Positions 11,745 through 13,426 of a stretch of DNA of 20,121 bases are shown here, piece by piece. The number at the start of each line of letters is the position of its first letter. Position 1 is the stretch's first letter. The position numbers and the translations under genes were made by a program. Below the pieces are notes generated by a model that searched no databases, was not told the DNA's origin, and saw only the letters and a program-made list of their open reading frames with translations. The stretch comes from a virus: positions 1 to 20,121 of IMG/VR virus record IMGVR_UViG_3300036785_000424, one strand, 5' to 3'.

Positions 11745-12418
11745 CTAAACCCCTTTCAAAATCTTGGGCAACGACGGCGGGTTTTCCTGGCGTTTCCGAT
11801 GTGGGGCAAGAACAGCCCAGACGAGCACATCGATAAAATACTCCTGGCGCGCGCTCTCGCGGAGTTGCGAAAGATAGAAAAGCAAGAGCTCGCGGAGGGG
11901 CCATGCGCGCACCTCGTCGAACCTCGTCGGGTCATGCCCTGCTACGGAACGGATAACGAGGGCGAAGTTTCCAAAGTCTCGGGCGCCGCGTTCTCGGTAA
12001 CGTGGTCCGCGTCGCTCTGGGTCGAAGAGCTCTGGAAAGTCTGCGACGATGGCGTCTCGTATCGAAAAAAAAGCGCGACGTGTCGCAGCACCTCTCGACC
12101 CATGATGAGTTTTTCTTCCGCGTCGGTTATCGCCGCAAAGCGCGCGGCGTTTTTGTCGGCGTCCTCCCGCGTCCATGTTTTGCCTTCTTCCGTGAGCAAT
12201 CCGGCGAGCAATTTATATTTGCGCCCGCTCTCTACAATCCGCGCTTGTGTTTCAATCGCCCTTTCTTCTCTCTGTTCATCCGAGAGCGCCGTCGTGTGCG
12301 TGAGCAACCCAAGAACGCCAGAGCGCTGCAATTGCGTCAAGACATAGTCATCTTGGATCGCCGCGAGTGCTTCTGTGACTCCGTGAAAATTGCGGCCATC
12401 GAGTTTTATCGTCTCCAC
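11745..12418 (-). CDS. Frameshifted tail assembly chaperone (gpGT-like)
   Basis: This is the long product of the tail chaperone locus. It is read from the same GTG as the short form through ...HVALFF, then shifted -1 on the T8 run (12065-12072) into SIRDAIVADFPELFDPERRG and on to ...PSLPKILKGV. The result is about 224 aa, of which the last 106 are from the -1 frame. The downstream segment PLRELLLFYLSQLRESARQEYF is typical of the T-domain in siphovirus chaperones. In lambda the GT fusion binds the tape measure and recruits tail tube subunits; the tape measure gene follows here directly, as expected. The -1 frame has no convincing start and ribosome site of its own near the junction, which supports frameshifting rather than a separate gene. 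Confidence 0.82.
11942..12418 (-). CDS. Tail assembly chaperone, short form (gpG-like)
   Basis: This 158-aa product is read without frameshift. It is predicted cytosolic and should chaperone the tape measure during tail assembly. I chose GTG 12418 (VETIKLDGRNFHG) because the family-like domain begins there and AAGGGAG lies at good spacing. ATG 12454 (12 residues longer) is possible but lies in the loop of a predicted hairpin with poorer context, and ATG 12544 has no ribosome site. The slippery codons CTT TTT TTT encode its L116-F117-F118; the remaining 40 residues after the shift point (RYETPSSQ...SLSVP) are polar and low complexity. The gene is preceded by a 213-base structured leader, odd in an otherwise tightly packed operon. 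Confidence 0.8.
   Translation of the reverse strand: METIKLDGRNFHGVTEALAAIQDDYVLTQLQRSGVLGLLTHTTALSDEQREERAIETQARIVESGRKYKLLAGLLTEEGKTWTREDADKNAARFAAITDAEEKLIMGREVLRHVALFFRYETPSSQTFQSSSTQSDADHVTENAAPETLETSPSLSVP
12065..12073 (-). promoter_or_regulatory. -1 ribosomal frameshift site (T8 slippery run)
   Basis: In the short-form frame the codons are CTT TTT TTT CGA (12073-12062). This fits the X XXY YYZ rule as T TTT TTT. A one-base slip back gives ...TTT TTT TCG ATA, entering the frame that encodes the conserved T-domain. Location near the end of the upstream frame, about 125 bases before its stop, is normal for tail chaperones. Confidence 0.82.
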
Positions 12419-12538
12419 CTTTGGTCTCCCTTCTAAACGAGGGCGAGAGGCCATTGTCCCGCCCTCGCCGCCCTGCGACGACGCCGGAGACCAATCGAGC
12501 GCCGTGCAAGACCTGGTATGCGCGTTGCTTTGGTCTCC
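12419..12538 (-). promoter_or_regulatory. Candidate translational switch before the tail chaperone
   Basis: In the mRNA the 9-mer GGAGACCAA occurs at 12538-12530 (A) and 12429-12421 (C), each extended to an 11-mer ending AAAG. Its exact complement TTGGTCTCC lies between them at 12494-12486 (B). B can pair perfectly with A (35-base loop) or with C (56-base loop), but not both. C includes the GGAG of the presumed ribosome-binding site for GTG 12418. The B-C loop contains its own hairpin, GGCGAG (12469-12464) with CTCGCC (12447-12442), extendable to about 8 pairs. The complementarity is seen; regulation is inferred. Confidence 0.5.
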
Positions 12539-12555
12539 TCGCATCTGCGAAACGC

Positions 12556-12594
12556 GCCAGGCCTGCCACGCCCGCCCCGGCCTTGCAACCTGGC
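12556..12594. repeat. GC-rich inverted repeat in the chaperone leader
   Basis: GCCAGG (12556-12561) and CCTGGC (12589-12594) are perfectly complementary around a very GC-rich centre, upstream of the three 9-mers. It would add a further hairpin to the leader RNA between tail tube and chaperone genes. Confidence 0.35.
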
Positions 12595-12611
12595 CACGCT
12601 TCGCATTTCCG

Positions 12612-12631: not shown

Positions 12632-13426
12632 TCAGAAAAACGTTGCCTGGAAATATGGCGCGGAGGGGTGGTGTGCCGTGTCGTCGAGGATCATTCCCTT
12701 CAGCGTCCAATTTCCATAGTCGTCGGCAATCATTCCGAGCGCGCCGCCAGGGTTTAAATTCACGTTCCAGATATCGAGCGCGATTTTCTGGCCGTCTGTC
12801 GGATCCGGGTCGAACGTGAGTTTTCCCTTGATGTAAGGCTGCGTTGCGCCCTGGACGACGTTGTTCGTCGCAGCGAGCGGCTTGTAATCGATCGTGACCG
12901 CCGACGTGTCAACGACCGCGCTCGTGAGCGGAAAATAAATCAACCCAAGTTGCGGGTCCGCGATCGTGTAGTCGACTCCCTGCACCAGAGTCGTTACGCC
13001 CTGGTGTACGACCGTGTTCGCGGGCAGCGATACGTCGAGGTTCAGCGCCAGCGTTCGAAAAAACTTTCCTTTTTTCGTCGGCGTCGCGCCGACGAGCGCC
13101 TCGCCCGTCACTGGCGTGGCCGTTCCCACGACGCTTACGATGCCAGCGGCCATCATCACAATGGCCATATGCTGCGCGGAAAAGTCTGTTCCAGTAATGC
13201 TGACAGACGGCTCGCGCTTTTTCAAAGCCGATGCAATCAGCGAAACGCTTTTGTTGATCGACTGGAACAGCGTGGCAATATCGTCTTTGATATCGAGTTC
13301 GAGTTTGGTGCAGTTTCCGAGGTGCTGGCTTCCGGTCGGGTTTCCGCTCGCGTCGAAAACGTCGAACAGAATCGAACCTTTGCCAAGCATCGGCAAATGC
13401 GGGATGGGGTAGAGCAGTCCTGGCAT
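12632..13426 (-). CDS. Major tail tube protein
   Basis: This 264-aa protein would polymerise into the tail tube. The N-terminal half has the layout usual for siphovirus tube proteins (KGSILFDVFDASGNPTG, LELDIKDDIATLFQS, SVSITGTDFSAQHMAIVM). The rest is beta-rich (FRTLALNLDVSLPANT, YTIADPQLGLIYFP, YIKGKLTFDPDPTDGQ), ending in FQATFF. It lies between the tail-terminator-like gene and the chaperone gene, the expected slot. The ribosome site is strong (TTAGGAGGAAACACC before ATG 13426), suiting an abundant protein, and a hairpin follows the stop. A clear signature motif is lacking, so the call rests on size, fold-like pattern and synteny. Confidence 0.85.
   Translation of the reverse strand: MPGLLYPIPHLPMLGKGSILFDVFDASGNPTGSQHLGNCTKLELDIKDDIATLFQSINKSVSLIASALKKREPSVSITGTDFSAQHMAIVMMAAGIVSVVGTATPVTGEALVGATPTKKGKFFRTLALNLDVSLPANTVVHQGVTTLVQGVDYTIADPQLGLIYFPLTSAVVDTSAVTIDYKPLAATNNVVQGATQPYIKGKLTFDPDPTDGQKIALDIWNVNLNPGGALGMIADDYGNWTLKGMILDDTAHHPSAPYFQATFF

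Follow-up and report, generated by a model that had tools for sequence, protein, structure and literature searches.

A proposed anti-Shine-Dalgarno hairpin and an upstream ribosome-site copy in the leader of a putative tail chaperone gene of uncultured soil phages

The window analyzed here comprises 20,121 bases and corresponds to one IMG/VR record. On its minus strand, a capsid gene (PF05065) and other genes are followed by genes for the tail terminator (phrog_4204) and the major tail protein (phrog_807), a leader, two overlapping open reading frames (ORFs) and the tape measure gene (phrog_24; Table 1). The leader runs from the tail-gene stop codon to GTG 12418 and has the predicted length of 213 nt. 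Folding showed that the leader region is unusually stable as RNA (z of -3.9). The overlapping ORFs had no family match, the first ORF matching neither PHROG nor Pfam. Based on their position, the -1 frame overlap and the sequence CUUUUUUUU, they were taken to be tail assembly chaperones of the G/GT type, as inferred from the known operon layout. Judging from the sequence, a -1 frameshift at CUUUUUUUU likely fuses the first chaperone ORF with the one that overlaps it (12176-11745). Tail chaperone dosage is controlled by frameshifting.

Relatives (loci designated L and a number) were obtained by tail-gene and chaperone searches of IMG/VR, and 34 leaders were compared. The chaperone search that started from the single window sequence gave no match; the tail-gene and alignment searches did yield relatives. 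The second chaperone ORF (DFPELF...) is conserved in L149, L150 and L162, and the METIKLDGR start of the first ORF is conserved among relatives. A longer chaperone from ATG 12544 or 12454, with a coding leader, was rejected: ATG 12454 is absent in L003, the upstream frame shifts relative to the chaperone among relatives, and the METIKLDGR-type start is conserved. A leader peptide was also rejected, being plausible in L002 alone (perhaps in L149) and not conserved. In L002 (3888-4036), an ATG after the A copy begins a reading frame of 48 codons, and the stop of this frame overlaps with the start of the chaperone (AUGA); this possible coupled leader peptide is absent from the other relatives. 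The sole close cellular relative found for the tail gene was L193, a Terriglobia MAG, which makes an acidobacterial host plausible on sequence grounds. Across 396 genomes from the same phylum as this MAG, a search for prophage copies gave no close relative except the genome of L193 itself.

Table 1. Features of the tail gene, leader and chaperone region in the window, in order of transcription.
Feature	Position	Strand	Basis or remark
Major tail (tube) protein gene	12632..13426	-	phrog_807, E 2e-30; stop codon UGA 12634-12632
P1, hairpin whose 5' arm includes the tail-gene stop codon	12606..12638	-	MFE fold; simple stem test p 0.30 in the window
P2, long stable hairpin	12546..12605	-	MFE fold
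A-B extended helix, predicted default window fold	12480..12545	-	nested folding P 0.99; lower stem extends it
HA, possible hairpin AUGCG/CGCAU with A in its loop	12518..12544	-	p 0.155 in the window
A, GGAGACCAA, upstream copy (putative decoy) of the ribosome site	12530..12538	-	exact match; kept in seven loci
HB, 13-bp hairpin CUUGCACGGCGCU / GGCGUCGU(C)GCAGG, 12-nt loop 12497-12486 displaying B	12472..12510	-	comparative pairing and covariance model
B, UUGGUCUCC, putative anti-Shine-Dalgarno	12486..12494	-	exact complement of A and C; own-phage loop-to-SD matching
T, G+C-rich hairpin between B and C	12436..12469	-	MFE fold; followed by a weak U run (UUUAG) only
C, GGAGACCAA, contains the chaperone Shine-Dalgarno GGAG	12421..12429	-	exact match
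Tail assembly chaperone first ORF (G-like), GTG 12418 start	11942..12418	-	between tail tube and tape measure
CUUUUUUUU, likely -1 frameshift site in the overlap of both chaperone ORFs	12065..12073	-	sequence and frames

The leader contains three 9-mers, A, B and C, which were found exactly where they had been predicted, with no further exact copy in the window. B is the exact complement of both A and C and can thus pair with either, as had been claimed. The identity of A and C extends to 11 nt (GGAGACCAAAG). Between C and GTG 12418 there are 2 nt; the GGAG of the ribosome site (Shine-Dalgarno, SD), which does lie within C, ends 7 nt before the start codon. Chance occurrence was assessed by fixing the ribosome site and shuffling the upstream leader 1000 times with dinucleotides kept. 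None of the 1000 shuffles of the window leader reached the length of the 9-nt triple, and three reached the 9-nt anti-SD match alone. Among the relatives, the triple was reached in 0/1000 shuffles for L003, 3/1000 for L149 and 1/1000 for L150; alone, it was not significant in L162 (p 0.08) and L163 (p 0.16). A repeat or mobile element was rejected as the source, HB being single-copy per phage and a 14-mer scan giving scattered short matches only. CsrA-type GGA sites were rejected as well, as they are not conserved in L149 or L162.

A, B and C are all retained in seven loci of five lineages (window, L003, L002, L149/L150 and L162/L163), with leaders of 144-238 nt. The phages with this trio are uncultured soil phages that together form a small clade. 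The trio is absent from the more distant relatives L004 to L025 and L193. The tail proteins of cultured phages are only about 28% identical, and their annotated gap to the next gene is 2 nt (JBD25) or 51 nt (Cr-LKS3); thus, no model phage carries the leader. One natural loss was observed. The chaperone of L151 is 97% identical to that of L149, and L151 lacks P2, A and B, for which a deletion and an assembly error are both possible. Its ribosome region reads GAGACGACA, compared with GAGACCAAA in L149, and C is altered from GAGACC to GAGACG, no longer matching the lost B. The A/B module is therefore dispensable in L151. Uncompensated loss with the chaperone gene kept, which had been named as the observation that would speak against a switch, was thus found once, in a locus where A and B are gone together and C no longer fits.

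The original prediction identified A, B and C but missed the conserved core, a 13-bp hairpin, HB, that carries B. In the window, L003, L149, L150 and L002, a CUUGCNNGGCGYU segment pairs with the 13-14 nt after B. Over these five sequences, the bulged versions of L162/L163 (GCGCUC/GGGCGC and GCGCUC/GAGCGC) being left out of the count, 64 of 65 cells are paired, with two two-sided changes. When the partner was slid by 1-3 columns, pairing fell to 34-65%, and 22 of 500 shuffle controls reached the observed value. In L002, an extra hairpin lies within the HB loop. Read as mRNA, HB contains three to seven G-U pairs, a point in favor of HB acting as sense-strand RNA. A covariance model of HB gave exactly one match in each of the window, L003, L149, L150 and L002. 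As these sequences went into the model, what it adds is the single copy and the location. L162/L163 scored below the threshold of the model.

Compensatory changes between the elements were counted on segments, as the MAFFT whole-leader alignment misplaced C in L149/L150. For B-C, 39 of 45 cells are paired over five distinct sequences, with two two-sided changes (U-A to C-G in L162 and G-C to U-A in L002). The paired percentage was reached by 8/500 shuffles and the covariation score by 18/500. For A-B, 38 of 45 cells are paired over five distinct sequences, with one two-sided change (G-C to C-G in L162), and the covariation was not beyond shuffles (155/500). Of the predicted compensation in relatives, there are thus modest signs for B-C. 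At all three positions with two-sided changes, the alternative pairing is broken in that sequence. The L002 loop fits its own SD with a match of 7 nt, against 5-6 nt for the SDs of other lineages, and L162/L163 behave likewise. Since C must hold the SD regardless, GGAG/GAGA imposes some of the match between B and C. With five distinct, related sequences and few independent changes, the modest covariation of B with C, better than that of A with B, is suggestive rather than proof. The elements, HB, their conservation, their single location and this modest covariation are what sequence and comparison establish.

Folding did not support the original claim of two near-equal structures. In the window, nested folding strongly favored the A-B helix (Table 1) and forced B-C pairing was 4.5 kcal/mol worse; therefore, 'near-equal' is wrong for simple helices. 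Prefix folds of the window predicted that A-B arises once B is transcribed and then persists, with C about 65% unpaired on average in the default ensemble. A-B is also dominant in L149, and in L003, L002, L150 and L163, B lies in a hairpin loop instead. The nested A-B helix was rejected as a conserved structure, being disfavored by 4-14 kcal/mol in L003, L002, L162 and L163. Nested B-C is never dominant in any member (P at most 0.27). The second hairpin that had been described within the B-C loop was confirmed, with 13 predicted pairs (T, 12469-12436). Since B sits in the HB loop, B-C pairing would be a pseudoknot closing over this terminator-like hairpin; a rough estimate placed it within a few kcal/mol of the nested state in all members, which is within error. 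Upstream, a P2-like hairpin occurs in a similar place in L002, L149 and L150 and is absent from L003, L162 and L163. Other stems at the place of HA are GCGCGG/CCGCGC (L003), GCGGGGC/GCCCCGC (L163) and GAUUC/GAAUC (L002), and a hairpin there is significant alone only in L003, L162 and L163.

We tentatively propose, at slightly less than even confidence, that this structured cis-regulatory mRNA leader tunes chaperone translation through the anti-SD loop of HB and an upstream ribosome-site decoy. HB would display B in its loop, from where B could reach the ribosome site C by a long-range pseudoknot; were HB to open, the two could instead form a nested helix. We infer that B-C pairing lowers initiation. 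A, as an upstream near-copy of the ribosome site, would compete for B, and the site would be free while B is held by A. In the window phage, the A-B helix would form first, giving a default predicted to be 'on', so that the chaperone would be translated unless something removes A from B. Candidate triggers for freeing B are a protein, RNA processing or translation through the leader, and the purpose may be to keep the chaperone low relative to the tail tube. A translational or attenuator-type switch had been suggested. This is partly supported, with the trio kept in five lineages and B-C pairable in all, but attenuation by A, B and C is not: B-C encloses T, A-B lies upstream of T, and neither has bases in common with the T stem. 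If true, the leader would provide a small and testable case of competition between a ribosome site and its decoy.

No known RNA family accounted for the leader. The window leader had no match in Rfam except a chance match to RF01730 at E 7, and the leaders of L003, L002, L149 and L162 had none. The single Rfam match in the scan of relatives was in L012, on the minus strand outside the leader (E 0.04, far below the cut-off). The closest layout is that of c4 of P1/P7, reportedly described by Citron and Schuster in 1990 as a copy, a complementary hairpin and a copy at the ribosome site. As in the leader, a complementary hairpin of the c4 antisense RNA (RF01695) faces an upstream copy and the ribosome site of the downstream gene in one transcript. 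However, c4 has two complementary stretches and the leader one (B); c4 undergoes processing and controls immunity as an antisense RNA, whereas the leader lies in a tail operon. The genes c4, icd and ant share one operon (PMC8198154). The leader resembles c4 in layout and perhaps in how it works, and it falls outside the c4 family, with no match to the covariance model RF01695. It is possible, though somewhat unlikely, that a c4-like RNA device in the tail operon sets the amount of chaperone, perhaps sensing a tail protein or acting in trans on other transcripts. Such a device would represent a new RNA family and would control chaperone dosage at a second level in addition to frameshifting.

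Leaders of translational riboswitches and of r-protein genes likewise hide or free the SD by exclusive anti-SD/anti-anti-SD pairing. No known aptamer or protein site and no Rfam match was found in the leader. In type I toxin mRNAs, access to the SD is set in a similar way, by short anti-SD elements together with either mutually exclusive folds or a pseudoknot, as in the sequential anti-SD structures of aapA3 (PMC6733600) and the pseudoknot deciding SD access in timP (PMC11228461). Exclusive SD structures and pseudoknots are thus real mechanisms, but the toxin genes have antisense RNA partners and the leader precedes a virion assembly gene. The G/GT-type tail chaperones of lambda, controlled by -1 frameshifting (reviewed in PMC5009743), share gene position and overlapping frames with the window, and chaperone dosage matters. 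Frameshifting in lambda sets the G:GT ratio inside the gene, whereas the leader would determine how much chaperone is made in total. In the open-access papers searched, no RNA leader controlling total tail chaperone level was found.

The gap between tail-tube and chaperone genes was also analyzed in the wider group. A G+C-rich stem followed by a U run was found in 12 of the 34 family leaders, compared with 1.15 expected from shuffles. In 18 of 29 leaders, the tail-gene stop-codon region forms part of a hairpin arm beyond chance, at p of at most 0.05 each. Thus, the gap is structured throughout the phage group, with differing solutions, and partial termination may be a common theme of its leaders. 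Both counts, and the G+C-rich hairpin that L151 retains despite the loss of A and B, speak for the explanation ranked as the main rival, in which the leader lowers the amount of chaperone RNA as a partial terminator, or through a processing or stability block, and A, B and C are incidental or parts of hairpins. We consider this unlikely. It leaves unexplained the B-C match and the diverged loops that track their own SD. The window is not among the 12 leaders; its T hairpin, with UUUAG only after the stem, fails intrinsic terminator scans, and L002 has no U run. The proposed anti-SD mechanism would, if true, also suggest that the tail/chaperone gap is a general place for RNA control, the gap holding recurrent but different stable hairpins in the wider group.

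RNA phage coat proteins repress translation. A, HB and C could similarly be sites for a repressing phage protein, e.g., the tail tube or chaperone protein, with base pairing secondary. The near-identity of A and C, the position of A in a hairpin loop in several relatives and the fit of self-repression with stoichiometric control are consistent with this distinctly improbable reading. B, however, is a complement and not a copy, which makes pairing the simpler reading, and relatives without B (L151, L005-L025) have not retained GAGACC as a free motif. A repeat acting at the DNA level, as an operator or in recombination or packaging, or common descent with no function, would fit a 9-mer in two direct copies and one inverted copy, few lineages and the one loss in L151, but is very unlikely given the G-U-rich, strand-specific HB stem with its two-sided changes and a trio retained while leader length varies by about 90 nt.

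Hairpins of other kinds were observed in and around these gaps. The tail-gene stop codon lies in a 5' hairpin arm in the window (12638-12606) and in L006 (UUCUACUGAGACG/CGUCUUAGUAGAA), L007 (UUCUACUGAGGC/GCCUCGGUAGAA), L010, L012, L024, L025, L193, L201 and L205. Many relatives without the trio (L005-L025, L193) have another conserved hairpin, CGGGCGG...CCGUCCCG, with variable loops, directly before GGAGG. In L004, the closest relative without the trio, the hairpin loop AUCGGU complements GACCGA on both sides of the SD (GACCGAUGAGGAGACCGAAAUG); this is a possible analogue of the trio, the match alone not being significant (p 0.36). The sequence GGGGGGACUCGAACC, which in reverse complement is like a tRNA T-arm, precedes the SD in L008, L206 and L212, and a tRNA remnant was rejected for these leaders, as ARAGORN finds no tRNA. 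A small extra ORF, not a bare leader, lies directly behind the major tail gene in L153, L155, L166, L170, L171, L174, L176 and L177.
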